Assembly: GCA_025360225.1 (NCBI GenBank)
Contig: JANYCN010000066.1
Coordinates: 1 to 64,000, forward strand
Origin: Actinomycetes bacterium
GTDB lineage: Bacteria > Actinomycetota > Thermoleophilia > Gaiellales > F1-60-MAGs149
Direction: 5' to 3'
Length of the DNA stretch: 64,000 nt
In this document: positions 11,213 to 52,612 of the stretch, piece after piece
How positions within the stretch are numbered: position 1 is the first letter of the stretch
Layout of the letters: each line of letters starts with the position of its first letter
The notes under the pieces: generated by a model
Database searches by the model: none
The model's input: the letters and a program-made list of their open reading frames with translations, nothing else
What the model was told of the DNA's origin: nothing
Made by a program: the position numbers and the translations under genes

Positions 11213-13897
11213 ATGGCGCGTCGGACGGCCCCTGCGGAACCGTTGACACGTCGTCCCCTGTCCATCCTCACAGCGCTCCTGGTGCTCCTTGCGCCGAGCC
11301 TCGCCGTCGGCGCCCCGCCGACAGGCAACCCGCCCGTCCAGTCGTCGATCGTGACGCGTGCGAACGGCTCCCCTCCCGTCGCGCAGATTGACCCTGCGAT
11401 CGCGATCGACCCGATCGACGGGCTGCACCGGATCGTCACAGCAACCGAGGGAGCGACGGGACGGATCGGTCGCTGGTCGACGGCGGACGGCGGTACCAGC
11501 TGGGCGTTTCAGGGCGATGCGCCGATCGCTCCCGGCACCGTCGACGCCTCGCGGTCACAGGCAGCCTGGGGTGCTGGCGCCACCGTCTACTCGTCGTGGC
11601 AGGGCCGGACGACGCCGGGCAGCGGCGCCGACTGCGGCGCTGCGGCCGGCGCCTGGCTCTCCTCATCGACCGACAGCGGACAGACGTGGAGCGCCCAGGT
11701 CGAGCCGATTGAAGGGGGCGTGAACGGCGTGCTCGGCGAGTACGTCTCACGGGGTTGGGCGTCGCTCACGGTCGACGACTCGGCGCGGTCGACGGCTGGC
11801 CAGCCGCTGATGGCCGTTGAGAAGGCGACCTGGACCGGCGCGTGCGGCGTAGGCCCAGTCGCCCGTGAGCTGTCGCTCGTCTGGCGCGTCGTCGGCTCGA
11901 GCGGGACCGTCCACGACGTCGACTTCACCATCCCGGGCGTCACGGACGCGTCGAACCCCGCCATCGTCGCGGTTCCCGCGCCGATCCCGACGGTCGCTGT
12001 GGCGTACATCACGACGCCGGCCGGGGCCAGTGCTCATCCCATGATCGCCGTCGTTCGCTGCAGCCGCGACGACCTGAGCCCGACGAACATCTTCGGGCTC
12101 GAGTGGATCTGCAGCGCGCCACAGGTCGTCTCCGACGCCTCGTTTGCTCTCGTCACCTCGATCGGCGCAACCTCCGCCCCAGCGATCGCCGTTGACGGCA
12201 ACCATGGTGGTGCGCTCTTCGTCGCGTACACGACGGCGACCGCGCAGGGCGCTCGCGTCGTGGTCACCGCGTCCGATGCGGGCGGCTCGATCTGGACACC
12301 ACCGACGCTGATCGACGAGCCGGCCGGTGTGACGGCGCACCAGCTGCTGCCGGCGATCGCCGTCGCTGCGAACGGGCGGGCAGACGTCGTCTACCTCGAC
12401 GGCCGCGACGCGCCAACCGGCACGCCGACCTACGCGCCCTACCAGACCTCGTTTCTGTGCGTGAACCGCGACGACTGTCCCGCCGGCATGCTGCGCGGCA
12501 ACGACGTCGCGCTCAGCACCGGGGCGCCGATCGCCTCGCCGCTCGGCGCCGGCTGGTTGCTCGGCACGCAGCTCGCGGTCGCGGACGCGCAGAACATCCC
12601 GACACCGTACACGGGGCACACGATCGCGATCGCTCCGCAGGCGAATGGCCTTGCCTCGTCGGAGCTATGGCACGGCTCGCGCCCGCCGCAGATCGCTGGC
12701 GGGACGATCAGCGACCAGCCCCGCGTGCTCGCGAAGAACATCACGACGAGCCTCGCCGACTGGTTCGTCGCCACCGATGTCGACGGCGACCCGGTCAACG
12801 TGACCGTCACCACGGTCGGAGCACCTGCCCACGGCGCGATCGCCGCCGGCGCCTACACGCCTCTCGCTGGCTTTGCGGGGCAGGACTCCTTCACGATCGT
12901 CGCGACGGATGGGCGGCTCTCGGCGACCGCCGTCCACCCGGTCGTCGTCGTCGACCAGGCGCCACAGTTCGACGCCGTTCAGCCATGCGTGGTGACCGAG
13001 GGCGCAGGATGTACACGACCGGTGAACGCCGTCGATCCGGATCCCGGCGATGGCGTCACCTACGCCCTTGGCTACGTGCCGCCCGAGCTGCGTGTGGCAC
13101 AGGCGAGCGTGAAGCTCAACGGCACGACGCTCGAGGTCTCGGTCGGCGCCGGCGTTCGCTACCCGGGCCTTCTCCGGGTCGAGGTGGTTGCGAGCGACAC
13201 GGCGCTGGCGCCAGCGCTGCCGCTCACATCGCGGCTGCCCATCTTCATCACCATCGTCCCGAACCTGAGCGTGCCAACGGTGACGGTCGCCGCCACCGCG
13301 GTCTCGGGGAGGTCCGTGCGGCTCACCGCCGCTCCGTTCTGGAGCGACCCGGACGACGGCTGCCTGACCGCCCTGGTCAACCGGTGCCACTGGCAGCTGA
13401 CATGGAACACCGGCGACGGGGAGACGACGACCACGACCGACGCGACGCTCGTCCACAGCTACGCAGCCGCCGGCTACTTCGCCCCCACGGTGACCGCACA
13501 GATCATCGGCTACAGCTCACCGGTGCCGCCGTCCGCCGTCGCGGGGCTGCTCACCGGCCCGGACCATCCGGGTGCGATCGCCGTCAGCGACGACGCACGC
13601 ACGCGCCTGTACGTACGAGCAAGCGGCACGCGGAGCGGGACGGTGCAGCTGCTGGTCGCCTCGCGAGACACGACGACCCTCGACGTGACGCTCGTGATCG
13701 CCGCCACAGGGCGTCGCTACCAGCGCAGCGTCCACGTCGTGGCTGGTCGGGCCGGTGCGCTCGGCGCCGCCGTGACGACGACGTTCCGGATCGGTGCGGT
13801 GCGCTCGACGGGAGCGACGGTCGTGCTGGGGTACGCCGAAAGCCTCGCGAGCGAGCCGCCTCCCCGCCCGCTGCGCAAGGTGTTCTGGATCCGCTAG
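11213..13897 (+). CDS. Secreted Asp-box (BNR/sialidase-like) protein with Ig/PKD-type domains
   Basis: Function unknown; probably extracellular carbohydrate or surface binding. The 894-residue protein has a signal peptide (basic start, then ILTALLVLLAPSLAVGA). Residues about 40-490 form a repeated beta-propeller-like region with Asp-box motifs STADGGTSWAF, SSTDSGQTWSA and SDAGGSIWTPP. A cadherin/Ig-like unit follows (GDPVNVTVTTVGAPAHG to DSFTIVATDG), then a second Ig-like unit and a PKD-type unit with WNTGDGETTTTTDATLVHSY. Sialidase catalytic residues (arginine triad, Tyr/Glu) cannot be assigned, so enzymatic activity is uncertain. No anchor is seen at the end (VFWIR). The stop codon lies six bases from repeat copy B. 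Confidence 0.82.
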   Translation: MARRTAPAEPLTRRPLSILTALLVLLAPSLAVGAPPTGNPPVQSSIVTRANGSPPVAQIDPAIAIDPIDGLHRIVTATEGATGRIGRWSTADGGTSWAFQGDAPIAPGTVDASRSQAAWGAGATVYSSWQGRTTPGSGADCGAAAGAWLSSSTDSGQTWSAQVEPIEGGVNGVLGEYVSRGWASLTVDDSARSTAGQPLMAVEKATWTGACGVGPVARELSLVWRVVGSSGTVHDVDFTIPGVTDASNPAIVAVPAPIPTVAVAYITTPAGASAHPMIAVVRCSRDDLSPTNIFGLEWICSAPQVVSDASFALVTSIGATSAPAIAVDGNHGGALFVAYTTATAQGARVVVTASDAGGSIWTPPTLIDEPAGVTAHQLLPAIAVAANGRADVVYLDGRDAPTGTPTYAPYQTSFLCVNRDDCPAGMLRGNDVALSTGAPIASPLGAGWLLGTQLAVADAQNIPTPYTGHTIAIAPQANGLASSELWHGSRPPQIAGGTISDQPRVLAKNITTSLADWFVATDVDGDPVNVTVTTVGAPAHGAIAAGAYTPLAGFAGQDSFTIVATDGRLSATAVHPVVVVDQAPQFDAVQPCVVTEGAGCTRPVNAVDPDPGDGVTYALGYVPPELRVAQASVKLNGTTLEVSVGAGVRYPGLLRVEVVASDTALAPALPLTSRLPIFITIVPNLSVPTVTVAATAVSGRSVRLTAAPFWSDPDDGCLTALVNRCHWQLTWNTGDGETTTTTDATLVHSYAAAGYFAPTVTAQIIGYSSPVPPSAVAGLLTGPDHPGAIAVSDDARTRLYVRASGTRSGTVQLLVASRDTTTLDVTLVIAATGRRYQRSVHVVAGRAGALGAAVTTTFRIGAVRSTGATVVLGYAESLASEPPPRPLRKVFWIR

Positions 13898-13903
13898 TAG
13901 TAG

Positions 13904-14083
13904 TGGTCTGATTGTCAGAGAGCGGCGTCATCGGGTGTCTCGAGCGAGCGGGGGCGTTGCGCGTCGCGCAGGGCTTGCTGGGGCAAGCGCAAGCGGCGCG
14001 CGACGCTCCCGCAGGGTGGCGCAGCCGGCCAGCGCAGGACGATCCAGGCGCGCGAATGACCACGCCAGTTGACAATCAGACCA
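13904..14083. repeat. MITE-like element, copy B (complete)
   Basis: A 180-base element bounded by a perfect 14-base terminal inverted repeat, TGGTCTGATTGTCA at the left and TGACAATCAGACCA at the right, with weaker pairing extending to about 28 bases. The four bases on each side are GTAG, consistent with a target duplication. The interior (GGGCTTGCT ... CAAGCGGCGCGC) is shared with copies A, C and E. It codes for no protein but places an ATG inside its right end that opens the MarR gene. It lies between two plus-strand genes. Confidence 0.85.
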
Positions 14084-14550
14084 GTAGCAACCTTGAACAG
14101 GAGACACAAGCGGTCGTCGATCGCATCCTCGGCGCGCTACCGCGCATCGGCGCGGGCATGCGACGGCACGGCATGGCAGCGTCGGGCTGCGGCGCGAGTC
14201 TCGGCCCGCGGCACTTCCAAGCGCTGCTGCCGCTCTTGCACGAGGGAACGCTCGGGGTCGGTGCGCTCGCCCAGCGGCTCGACGCGAGCCTCGCGGCCAC
14301 CAGCCTGATGGTCGCCGAGATGGACGCAGCCGGCGTCGTCGAGCGACACCAGGATCCCGATGATCGCCGCCGCACTCTCGTCTCGGTGCGTTCGGACGTG
14401 CGTTCGGAGCTCGAGGGAGCGTACTCCGAGCGCAGGCGACTGCTCGCCCGGGCCATCGAGCGGCTCGGCGCCGAGGAGCGCGTCGGCCTTGTACGCGGTC
14501 TCGAGGCGATCGCCGACGAGCTCCACGCTGACGCTACCGACTCGCCGTAG
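14056..14550 (+). CDS. MarR-family transcriptional regulator
   Basis: A winged-helix DNA-binding protein of 164 residues, the normal MarR size. Helices around LGPRHFQALLPLLHEG, the recognition helix region LAQRLDASLAATSLMVAEMDAAGVVE, and the wing RHQDPDDRRRTLVSV are clear; a C-terminal dimer helix follows. The first plausible start, ATG at 14056, lies inside the right end of repeat copy B, so the first nine codons (MTTPVDNQT) come from the repeat. The true N-terminus could be later if a non-standard start is used. Its target is unknown; the convergent PLP dehydratase and the upstream secreted protein gene are candidates. Confidence 0.85.
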   Translation: MTTPVDNQTSSNLEQETQAVVDRILGALPRIGAGMRRHGMAASGCGASLGPRHFQALLPLLHEGTLGVGALAQRLDASLAATSLMVAEMDAAGVVERHQDPDDRRRTLVSVRSDVRSELEGAYSERRRLLARAIERLGAEERVGLVRGLEAIADELHADATDSP

Positions 14551-15561: not shown

Positions 15562-15876
15562 CGGTCCGATTGCGATGTCGTGGTCATTCCGCGGCCGATG
15601 AACGGAGCGAGCGGGAGCGTTGCGCGTCGCGCAGGGCTTGCTGATCGCGGGCGTGCTGGATAGCACGCCCGCTCGCACGCGTGTCAAGGCGAAGGCCTTG
15701 ACACGCTAAGTGCAAGCGGCGCGCAACGTTCCCGCGAAGCCCACGATCCGGCACGCAGAGCGGGCCGGGACGCGGTCGCCGGAGCTGAGCGGCGTAGCCA
15801 CCCGACGGGTGGCAGAGCCGACAAGCGCAGGACGATCCAGGCAGTCGGATGACCACGCCATTTCACAATCAGACCA
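15562..15876. repeat. MITE-like element, copy C with double hairpin
   Basis: About 315 bases. The right end reads TCACAATCAGACCA (15863-15876); the left end is a decayed form (CGGTCCGATTGCGATG). The middle carries two hairpins: arms GCGGGCGTGCT/AGCACGCCCGC with loop GGAT (15647-15672) and GTGTCAAGGC/GCCTTGACAC with loop GAAG (15681-15704). They sit inside the GGGCTTGCT...CAAG core that is uninterrupted in copy B, so they look like a later insertion shared with copy A. The right end supplies the last codons and stop of the neighbouring hydrolase gene. Confidence 0.85.
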
Positions 15877-16598: not shown

Positions 16599-16691
16599 TG
16601 GTGTGATTGCGAGATGGGGCGTTCATTGGCGGTCTGCCAGCGCAGGACCATCCAGGCAGCCGAGTGACCACGCCGTCTCGCGACCAGATCA
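16599..16691. repeat. Short decayed copy D of the inverted-repeat element
   Basis: About 93 bases between the nuoN stop and the hydrolase start. The left end TGGTGTGATTGC and the right end (TGACCACGCC ... CCAGATCA) are recognisable variants of the family termini; the GCGCAGGACCATCCAGGC interior matches copies B and C. The core with GGGCTTGCT is missing. Confidence 0.6.
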
Positions 16692-16696
16692 CGAGG

Positions 16697-18163
16697 TTAC
16701 GGTGCCGCGACGAGCGAGGCCGCGGCCGAGCCCGCCCAGTCAAGCACGTCAGACGGATACACGCCAAGCCAGAGCACGACTCCTGCCGCGACGACGGTGG
16801 CGATCCCGGCGAACACCGCGCCTGGCGCGAGCTCTGCCATCGCGCCACTCTCCGAGCCGCGATCGAACATCGAGAGCCCGACCTTCAGGTAGTAGCCAAG
16901 CCCGATCACGGTGGCGACCACACCGACGATCACGAGGTAGGTGGAGTCCGCCTGCACCGTCGCGGAGAAGAGGTACAGCTTCGCGAGGAACCCTGCGGTC
17001 GGCGGGAACCCGCCGAGGGACAGCAGGAACACCGTCAGGCTCGCTGCCATCGTTGGTCGTTTGAAGCCCCAGCCGCGGAGCGACTCGATCGTCGCCGGCC
17101 CGCCAATCTCCCGCTCGTGCACGGCGATCACCGCAAACGAGCCGACGCTCATGGCCGCATAGCAGGCGAGGTAGAAGAGGAGCGCCTTGCCGGCGCCCGA
17201 GCCGGCGACGATCGCCATCAGCAGGTAGCCGGCATGACCGACGGACGAGTACGCCAGCATCCGCTTGACGTTCGTCTGCCGCAGCGCCGCGACGTTCGCG
17301 CCGATCATCGTGACGATCGCGAGCGCGGCGAGCGCCGGACGCCAGTACTGCGCCTCGGCCGGGAGCGCCGCGACCGTCACGCGGTAGAGGATCGCGAAGG
17401 CCGCGGTCTTCGTCGCCGCCGACATGAAGCCGGTGACCGGGGACGGCGCGCCCTCATAGACGTCCGGCGTCCACATGTGGAACGGCACGACGGCGACCTT
17501 GAACGCAAGCCCTGCGAGCACCATCGCCGTGCCCGCGAGCGCGAGCGGCGCCGTCGGGTCTGCGCGGAGCCCCTTGGCGATGCCGGCGAGGTCGAGCGCG
17601 CCGGTCGCGCCGTAGAGGAGCGCGGCGCCGTACAGCAGCACCGCCGACCCGACGGACCCGAGAACGAGGTACTTGAAGCCGGCCTCGAGAGAGGCCTCGC
17701 TGCGCACGTCGAACGCGCAGAGGGCGTAGAGCGTGATCGAGAAGAGCTCGAGCGCGACGAACAGCGACACGAACGAGCTGGCCGCGGAGACGAGGTCCAT
17801 GCCGGCAGCTGCGAAGACGAGAAACGCGACGAACTCCGGTCCACGCTCTCGCATCCTCGGCCACCCGTACGCCACGGCGAGCGTCAGGAGCCCGGAGCCG
17901 GCGACGATCACCCTGACGGCGTTCGCGAAGCGGTCTACAACGAGCTGGTCGGACAGCACGCTCCAGCTGCCGCCGTGGCTGTCCCAGATCTGCGCAGTAG
18001 CGATCAGCGAGCCGACGAACGCCCCGGCGCCGATGAGGAACGACAGGTCGCGTGCACCGCGGCCGCCGACGGCGACGGCGAGGAGCAACAGAAGCGACGC
18101 GGCGCCAAGGAGGACCACGTCTGGGGCGAGCGCGTCCCACTCGATCGTCGGCGGCGTGATCAT
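16697..18163 (-). CDS. nuoN: NADH-quinone oxidoreductase subunit N
   Basis: Last gene of the complex I operon. A 488-residue polytopic membrane subunit of the Mrp-antiporter type that takes part in proton pumping. It has about 14 hydrophobic segments beginning at VVLLGAASLLLLLAVAVGG, with the antiporter-family signature HMWTPDVYEGAPSPVTGFMS near residue 235 and a conserved charged lysine in the broken helices. It overlaps nuoM by four bases, in keeping with coupled translation. Repeat copy D follows the stop by five bases and may mark the operon end. Confidence 0.95.
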   Translation of the reverse strand: MITPPTIEWDALAPDVVLLGAASLLLLLAVAVGGRGARDLSFLIGAGAFVGSLIATAQIWDSHGGSWSVLSDQLVVDRFANAVRVIVAGSGLLTLAVAYGWPRMRERGPEFVAFLVFAAAGMDLVSAASSFVSLFVALELFSITLYALCAFDVRSEASLEAGFKYLVLGSVGSAVLLYGAALLYGATGALDLAGIAKGLRADPTAPLALAGTAMVLAGLAFKVAVVPFHMWTPDVYEGAPSPVTGFMSAATKTAAFAILYRVTVAALPAEAQYWRPALAALAIVTMIGANVAALRQTNVKRMLAYSSVGHAGYLLMAIVAGSGAGKALLFYLACYAAMSVGSFAVIAVHEREIGGPATIESLRGWGFKRPTMAASLTVFLLSLGGFPPTAGFLAKLYLFSATVQADSTYLVIVGVVATVIGLGYYLKVGLSMFDRGSESGAMAELAPGAVFAGIATVVAAGVVLWLGVYPSDVLDWAGSAAASLVAAP

Positions 18164-38205: not shown

Positions 38206-39137
38206 GGCTGTTGCTGCTCGGAGGGTCGACCTTCCTCGGCCCGGCGCTGATCGACGCCGCACATGCTGCCGGGCATGACGTGACGACGTTCACGCGCGGG
38301 ACGACGCCGATCCCACGCGGCCGGATCAGCGAGCTGAACGGCGATCGGGAGCACGACCTGAGCGCGCTCGACGGCGGGGCGTGGGACGCGGTGATCGACA
38401 CGTCCGGCTATGAGCCGCAGGTCGTGCGTGCCAGCGCCGAGCTGCTCGCCCCGCGCGTCGGGCGGTACGTCTTCGTCTCGACGATCAGCGTGTACGCGGC
38501 CGACGGCTTGCCGCTCGACGAGGACGCGGCCGTCGTGCGTGACGAGCCCGAAACGTACGGCGGGGCGAAGCTGCTGTGCGAGGAGGCGGTCGCCGAGCTC
38601 TTCGGCGGGCGGAGCGTGATCGCGCGTCCGGGGATGATCGTCGGTCCAGGCGACCCAACCGGTCGGTTTTCTTACTGGGCGCACCGCATCGCGAGAGGGG
38701 GCGAGGTTCTGCTGTTCGACGGTCCCGATCGCCGTCTGCAGCTGATCGACGTCCGTGACCTCGCCCGCTGGCTCGTCCACGCCTGCGATGTCGGGCTCTC
38801 CGGGACGTACAACGTGACCGGCCCGCGCGAGCCGCTGACGCTGAGGGACATGTTCACAGCCGCGGTCACCACGACCGGCGCTGCCGCACACCCGACGTAC
38901 GTGTCGGAGGCGCTGCTCCGCGAGCACGCGGTGGCCGAGTGGGGCGAGCTGCCGTTCTGGATCGACAGCGCCTCGCCCGCAGCGAGCGTCGCGAACGCGA
39001 TCATCATCGACCGGGCGCTCGCGGCCGGTCTGACGTTCAGGCCTTTGGCGGAGACGGTCACCGGCGCGCTCACCGCTCCTCTGATCGATGGCGTCGGGCT
39101 CACTCCCGAGCGCGAACGAGCGCTCCTGGTGGTGTGA
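38202..39137 (+). CDS. NAD-dependent epimerase/dehydratase-family protein
   Basis: An extended SDR-like Rossmann protein of 311 residues. Cofactor motif LLLGGSTFLGPALIDAA at the N-terminus, IDTSGYEPQ, STISVYAADG, and the catalytic pair in YGGAKLLCEEA. It resembles isoflavone-reductase or CsdB-like reductases; the substrate is not readable. It starts with TTG overlapping the DtxR stop. Its C-terminal LLVV and TGA lie in a solo copy of the repeat terminus (TGGTGTGATTGC). Confidence 0.82.
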   Translation: MRLLLLGGSTFLGPALIDAAHAAGHDVTTFTRGTTPIPRGRISELNGDREHDLSALDGGAWDAVIDTSGYEPQVVRASAELLAPRVGRYVFVSTISVYAADGLPLDEDAAVVRDEPETYGGAKLLCEEAVAELFGGRSVIARPGMIVGPGDPTGRFSYWAHRIARGGEVLLFDGPDRRLQLIDVRDLARWLVHACDVGLSGTYNVTGPREPLTLRDMFTAAVTTTGAAAHPTYVSEALLREHAVAEWGELPFWIDSASPAASVANAIIIDRALAAGLTFRPLAETVTGALTAPLIDGVGLTPERERALLVV

Positions 39138-39140
39138 TTG
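39129..39140. repeat. Solo terminal motif of the inverted-repeat family
   Basis: TGGTGTGATTGC at a gene 3' end. With its left flank, CTCCTGGTGGTGTGATTGC is identical to the left end of copy D (16592-16610). The matching other end is not seen. Confidence 0.45.
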
Positions 39141-39338
39141 CAGCTCGCCGCCGGGTCGGTCGCCGATCACGCCCCGGTCGGTAGCGGAAGACAACGGGCG
39201 TCCGAGAATCGCCTGGTGTACGAGGCGTAGCTCGCGGAGGGTGAACGTCGGCGGCAGCAGCTCGTAGCCGACCGCGTCGCGAGCCGCCCTTACCGCGCAG
39301 CCGATCGTGGAGGGTCTCGACGATCGCCCCGTGGGTCA
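39138..39338 (-). pseudogene. Degraded C-terminal part of an NrtR-type (Nudix-related) regulator
   Basis: Two minus-strand frames join into a piece of the NrtR family: THGAIVETLHDRLRGK in one frame, then AVGYELLPPTFTLRELRLVH and QAILGRPLSSATDRGVI in another. The second part is the winged helix-turn-helix that follows the Nudix domain. The Nudix domain is missing and a frameshift separates the parts. Full members regulate NAD or sugar metabolism. Confidence 0.68.
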
Positions 39339-47601: not shown

Positions 47602-47731
47602 CGTGGGGGGATCGAGCGGGGGTGGCGGCCGTCCTGCGGAGATTGCTCGGACAAGTGCAAGCGGCGCGCGGCGCGCAACGCTCCCGCTCGCTCCAGACTC
47701 CCAATGACGCCGCCATCCGACAATCACACCA
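47602..47731. repeat. Inverted-repeat element, copy E (left end decayed)
   Basis: The right end CGACAATCACACCA (47718-47731) is a variant of the family terminus, and the interior AAGTGCAAGCGGCGCGCGGC and CAACGCTCCCGCTCGCTCCA match copies A-C. The left boundary is uncertain. The right end touches the stop codon of the LuxR remnant. Confidence 0.65.
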
Positions 47732-48009
47732 CTAGTGATCGCGGGCGGCGAGGCTCGCGCCGCCCGGGAGGAGCAGCCCCTCCGCTACGGCCTTTGCCGC
47801 CGCCGAGGCATAGGTCGGCGTCTCGAGCTTCTCGAGGATCCGTTCCACGTTCGCTCCGACGGTTCGCGGCGGGATGAACAGCGCGTCCGATCTCCGGGTT
47901 CAAGCGCCCGTCGGTCATGAGCGCGAGGACCTCGAGCTCGCGACGGGTGAGGTCGAACACGGCTTCCGCCAGCGTCGCCGTCACGACCGCGGCCCAGGAC
48001 TCGTCGCCG
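47732..48009 (-). pseudogene. Frameshifted LuxR-type helix-turn-helix remnant
   Basis: On the minus strand FDLTRRELEVLALMTDGRLN and PEIG begin a LuxR (GerE) DNA-binding domain. After a frameshift near 47885 it continues in another frame as LFIPPRTVGANVERILEKLE, then SAAAKAVAEGLLLPGG. Joined, this is a complete C-terminal LuxR domain ending at the TAG at 47732-47734. The sensor part is absent; sequence upstream changes directly into an SDR remnant, suggesting a deletion joined two genes. Confidence 0.7.
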
Positions 48010-52555: not shown

Positions 52556-52595
52556 ACGGGTCAGAGCCGCGTCGGGGTCTTTCAGTCAGCGGTCT

Positions 52596-52612
52596 AGTGG
52601 TCTGGGATCACA
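52596..52612. repeat. Degenerate terminal motif of the inverted-repeat family
   Basis: TAGTGGTCTGGGATCAC resembles the left terminus TAGTGGTCTGATTGTCA. It lies immediately before the antitoxin remnant and no other end is visible. Confidence 0.35.

Follow-up and report, generated by a model that had tools for sequence, protein, structure and literature searches.

A MITE-like repeat family in a Gaiellales genome whose CTAG flanks often coincide with stop codons of neighbouring genes

The reference element and its relatives

The window analyzed here corresponds to positions 1 to 64,000 of contig C22, which belongs to a 3.24-Mb genome assembled in 89 contigs. It contains a complete copy of a repeat (Table 1) that the initial annotation had described as a dispersed, protein-free, MITE-like element with perfect 14-base ends and a GTAG tetramer on each side. 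Both tetramers are indeed present, and the two termini (TGGTCTGATTGTCA ... TGACAATCAGACCA) match each other in inverted orientation at 14/14 bases, with inverted similarity extending beyond these positions. The four related copies that had been listed elsewhere in the window all proved to be real. That at positions 1-138 is the visible remainder of a longer copy, since the window begins at the start of contig C22, which cuts it; 1 bp past the CTAG adjoining this copy lies the CTAG stop of a glutamine synthetase gene (144-147). The two proposed solo ends fared differently: the one in which CTGG is followed by TGGTGTGATTGC is convincing, and the TGA of TGGTGTGA provides the stop codon of the gene that ends there at position 39137, whereas the other, at 52594, offers just CTAG and TGGTCTG. 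The NuoN-like protein encoded next to the 93-bp copy has its nearest named relatives among Thermoleophilia and Gaiellaceae, which suggests that the host is an uncultured, Gaiellales-like actinobacterium.

Table 1. Coordinates of the repeat copies and of their parts in the 64-kb window
Feature	Position	Strand	Remarks
Complete element copy, shorter interior form	13904-14083	+	180 bp
Left terminal inverted repeat	13904-13917	+	TGGTCTGATTGTCA
Right terminal inverted repeat	14070-14083	-	TGACAATCAGACCA
Left outer tetramer GTAG (read as decayed CTAG)	13900-13903	.	family consensus CTAG
Right outer tetramer GTAG (read as decayed CTAG)	14084-14087	.	family consensus CTAG
Left arm of conserved 20-bp interior hairpin	13948-13967	+	
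Right arm of conserved 20-bp interior hairpin	13993-14012	+	
CTAG stop of upstream gene (gene end 13897)	13894-13897	+	separated by 2 bp from the outer tetramer
Partial copy truncated by the start of contig C22	1-138	-	followed by CTAG 139-142
315-bp copy with extra hairpin modules	15562-15876	+	flanks CTCG ... CGAG
93-bp internally deleted copy	16599-16691	+	just downstream of the stop of a NuoN-like gene (16697-18163, -)
Rearranged copy with one intact end	47602-47731	-	flanked by CTAG 47732-47735
Solo left end after CTGG	39130-39141	+	TGGTGTGATTGC
Weak possible solo end	52594-52604	+	CTAG-TGGTCTG

Further copies, whose absence would have spoken against the initial interpretation, are abundant in the genome. 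The 180-bp unit found 78 matches, namely itself (100%) and 77 other partial or complete ones, and a degenerate pattern of the terminal repeat, TGGTSTGATTGNSANA, matched 305 times, as compared to 10 matches for the reversed control pattern. From these terminal matches, we estimate that the family has about 150 copies, with lengths between roughly 70 and 370 bp, a figure that is based on pattern counts, with part of the copies read individually. Fifty-one paired copies (102 ends) were recovered together with their flanks and served as the sample for the counts of flanks and stop codons given below. These copies are protein-free and span 67-372 bp, a size range that reflects the variable presence of hairpin modules in the interior. 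Some copies (L079, L034) bear further hairpin modules in series, for instance GGTGATCTGGT-GGAT-ACCAGATCACC. About one third of the contig ends, the start of the window included, fall inside an element copy (contigs C1-C48), so that the family breaks the assembly.

Several characteristic features of MITEs are present: a length below about 500 bp without a protein, terminal inverted repeats, and multiple dispersed copies. Overall, the family looks like a mobile element that is non-autonomous and belongs to a type already described. Its exact core pattern had no match in the GTDB and IMG/VR collections that we searched, in which records very close to the window may be missing, and the literature held nothing to the point on an IS481-type MITE or on a repeat described in Gaiellales.

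CTAG flanks and the stop codons of neighbouring genes

The GTAG flank of the reference copy had initially been taken as a signature of transposition. This view does not hold for the family: the outer tetramer is CTAG at 62 of the 102 ends, CTCG (read outside-in, with one TTCG counted in) at 26, and GTAG at merely four, and we therefore discarded GTAG as the target duplication. CTAG is a rare sequence in this DNA (14 occurrences in the window vs. 174 expected, a twelvefold under-representation at 70% GC). Since CTAG is the commonest tetramer at the ends and is yet avoided in the genome, the GTAG on both sides of the reference copy is best read as a decayed CTAG, and not as a private duplication. 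Of the 10 CTAG sites that lie outside gene interiors in the window, four consist of a TAG stop codon and the C before it.

A link between the element and stop codons had not been part of the initial annotation. In the sample of paired copies, the stop codon of 22 flanking genes is exactly the TAG of the CTAG that borders the element, 10 of them lying to its left and 12 to its right, and five more genes end on the TGA within TGGTSTGA. For these two groups, a test against equal frames gave p = 0.0015; the gene ends were called by a simple codon-usage script, so that single cases may be off. At least six of the proteins that stop on an element's TAG are full length, as judged from the extent of the match to their family models: IF-2 (to position 585 of 587), PntB (459/460), FolB (120/122), IlvC (333/337), EtfA (309/313), and a glyoxalase (139/143). 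Because these proteins reach, or nearly reach, the ends of their family models, the stop codons are the natural ones, and the CTAG sequences should predate the element. At one copy, convergently oriented genes for IF-2 and for a histone-deacetylase-like protein both terminate within the CTAG nearest to them, as would be expected if one shared CTAG had been duplicated. A diverged sister family with the same core and layout, and with a different inner terminal repeat, is present in a genome of another genus of the same family (G003); there, CTAG flanks 13 of the 22 matched ends, and seven ends are used as a stop codon.

Taken together, we consider it probable that the family represents a non-autonomous, MITE-like DNA transposon that inserts into CTAG and leaves a CTAG on both sides. 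The element would enter a pre-existing CTAG tetranucleotide, which would be found duplicated, one on each side, after insertion. The neighbouring gene would then retain its own stop codon and its full length, because a CTAG, and with it a TAG, is present on each side of the inserted DNA. Insertions within genes are presumably removed by selection, and the surviving copies would abut gene ends both because of this loss and because the rare CTAG is often a TAG stop codon. A DDE transposase acting in trans, most probably of the IS481 type, is likely to be responsible for the movement. What we observed are the number of copies, their ends, the CTAG beside them and its service as a stop codon on either side, the full-length genes, and the related family in a second genus; transposition itself, the duplication of CTAG, the type of transposase, and the loss of intragenic insertions are inferred.

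Not every property of the flanks points in the same direction. CTAG is self-complementary, and its use as a stop codon on both sides favours a duplication, while the variants of the tetramer speak against it: they are inverted between the two ends, with CTCG on the left and CGAG on the right, and CTCG never occurs on the right. Such inverted variants are more in keeping with a terminal repeat than with a target copy in direct repetition. No direct repeats stood out in the sequences outside the tetramer, where one weak score (z = 2.2) was obtained among some 60 combinations. Taken alone, the inverted variants and the lack of an outer direct repeat would make CTAG a part of the element. We nevertheless favour insertion with duplication of CTAG because of the natural stop codons, the convergent gene pair, the single CTAG that adjacent back-to-back copies have in common, and the excess of extra CTAG sequences in the outer flanks, which occur there at 18 times the background, nearly all of them within 14 bp. 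The orientation-specific change from CTAG to CTCG (outside-in) was never seen at ends that serve as a stop codon.

By using a rare, stop-bearing tetranucleotide that is spared on both sides, some 150 copies could be accommodated with little burden on a compact genome of 3.2 Mb, and the family would offer a ready test of stop-codon-sparing insertion. For annotators of uncultured Gaiellales-like genomes, it is a warning that such repeats interrupt assemblies and mark where genes end.

Folding of the element

The entire + strand of the reference copy folds into a single foldback structure (-117.9 kcal/mol; z = -8.6), and the + strand is the better folding of the two strands in 43 of 46 copies, with a mean difference of 15.6 kcal/mol. 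This strand bias is what one would look for if the hairpins of the + strand were themselves functional, as a terminator, as an RNA stabilizer, or as a folded intermediate in spreading, and if the repeat were kept for that role. In the main stem, both bases of three out of 20 pairs have changed from one genus to the other with pairing kept, G-U variants that recur in several copies are on the + strand (A-C mismatches occur in one or two copies each), and the copies lie between convergent genes far more often than between divergent ones (17 vs. 3), all of which would suit such a structured element. However, changes on both sides within the genome affect only one of the 53 consensus pairs (covariation term -0.18), and the orientation of the element relative to its neighbouring genes shows no preference (14 vs. 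14 in tandem contexts; 10 vs. 12 where it abuts a stop codon), which argues against a cis-acting RNA role. Rfam provided no match to the element at the gathering score, nor at E-values up to 1 for the loci tried, with one chance-level hit outside the element, and a CTAG target is in itself enough to explain the position at gene ends. We therefore regard maintenance of the repeat as a structured RNA or single-strand element as unlikely. The pairs shared among copies keep G-U on one strand and are compensated between genera while the resident copies decay freely; for this reason, one might envisage an interior that is selected as a strand-specific folded RNA or single-stranded DNA during propagation, with the family spreading via a folded single-stranded intermediate despite its DDE-like ends. 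We view this possibility as quite speculative.

Candidate transposases and comparison with known mobile elements

MITEs usually, though not invariably, have an autonomous relative with identical ends. No transposase bounded by the family's own ends was found with the DDE_Tnp_1, Y1_Tnp, rve, DDE_5, and IS481 models, with terminal matches listed for contigs 1-48 of an assembly that breaks inside copies. An embedded transposase gene of the IS5 type (E = 1.2e-30) is present at an identical internal position in two copies at different loci, a finding that could make IS5 the autonomous partner of the family. Yet this gene is directly followed by ...GAAACGGACTC, which looks like an end of its own, and TAAGTGC then continues an ordinary 310-bp copy, as expected of an IS nested at TAA; in addition, the left half of the embedded IS5 is missing from the assembly, and the other IS5 remnant in the contig has its own GAGGCTGTGTATAC end. 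We judge the embedded gene to be a nested insertion with apparent ends of its own, and a role of IS5 as the autonomous partner to be very unlikely. The two IS5-family copies at this internal TAA (C26:1-616, locus L109; C84:1-320, locus L119) lack their left halves at contig edges. The genome also encodes one Y1 (RAYT-like) transposase, so that spreading in the manner of REP/RAYT repeats was considered. We find this hardly credible and rejected RAYT as the mover: the element does not flank the Y1 gene, stop codons occur on either side of it with no polarity, and inverted termini spanning the whole element are not part of REP anatomy.

Transposases of the IS701 family are another candidate: this family is known for duplications of exactly 4 bp (PMC2266710), and the MITE, like IS701 elements, has a 4-bp CTAG without a spacer base. 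Such transposases occur in this genome and in that harboring the sister family (G003), with ends that abut CTAG, and in a further relative (G039) CTAA is directly repeated in one IS701 copy and CTAG in another. The ends of IS701 (TAGTGCTTTGTT/TAGGACTTTGTT) match the end of the MITE at just four to five of 16 positions, however, the MITE never shows CTAA, and the IS701 transposase gene of this genome is broken by a stop codon. Mobilization by an IS701-family enzyme such as this one thus seems to us rather improbable. Just outside the window (C22:71023-71892, corresponding to L123:7023-7892), an IS5 remnant precedes the beginning of an IS701-family element that abuts CTAG at the contig end. In comparison, the IS701 family (PMC2266710) resembles the repeat family in its 4-bp duplication, which for the repeat is a proposed one, and, within this order, in its CTAG/CTAA flanks, and differs from it in the sequence of the terminal repeat.

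By analogy, an IS481-type enzyme appears to be the likeliest mover, because the IS481 elements found in the same order are located at nCTAGn and have TG...CA ends, and because the transposon TnRErm46 targets CTAG. This arrangement was seen in the IS481 elements (L225-L249) wherever both ends were readable, and some of them have full 6-bp direct repeats. The repeat family shares the CTAG target and the TG...CA ends. Its terminal repeat agrees with the IS481 ends tested at 9/16 positions at best; with P about 0.02 for a single one of several comparisons, this is not significant and does not confirm the assignment. In IS481 elements, one additional base separates CTAG from TG; the family has no spacer, and CTAG abuts TGG. 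Six-bp NCTAGN repeats of the IS481 kind are ruled out for the family by the fixed T/A beside CTAG.

The closest parallel is found in Rhodococcus equi, where TnRErm46, driven by ISRe46 of the IS481 family, targets CTAG sequences whose TAG serves as the stop codon of the target genes (PMC6794481). The CTAG target, a terminal repeat beginning with TG, a flanking TAG used as stop codon, and neighbouring genes that remain whole are common to both systems. TnRErm46 is an autonomous transposon of 6.9 kb with 6-bp NCTAGN repeats (PMC6794481), whereas the family carries no gene, numbers about 150 copies, lacks a spacer between CTAG and TG, and has an apparently unrelated terminal repeat. With bacterial MITEs such as Correia, ERIC, Chunjie, and QMITE2 (reviewed in PMC10969869), it shares the short, protein-free form, the terminal inverted repeats, and the high copy number, as well as predicted foldback transcripts, intergenic location, size variants, and nested IS elements. 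Unlike these, it combines a strict CTAG target and the coincidence with natural stop codons with a GC-rich, modular hairpin interior that is common to two genera. Overall, it looks like a MITE family that is new, targets CTAG strictly, and spares stop codons upon insertion.
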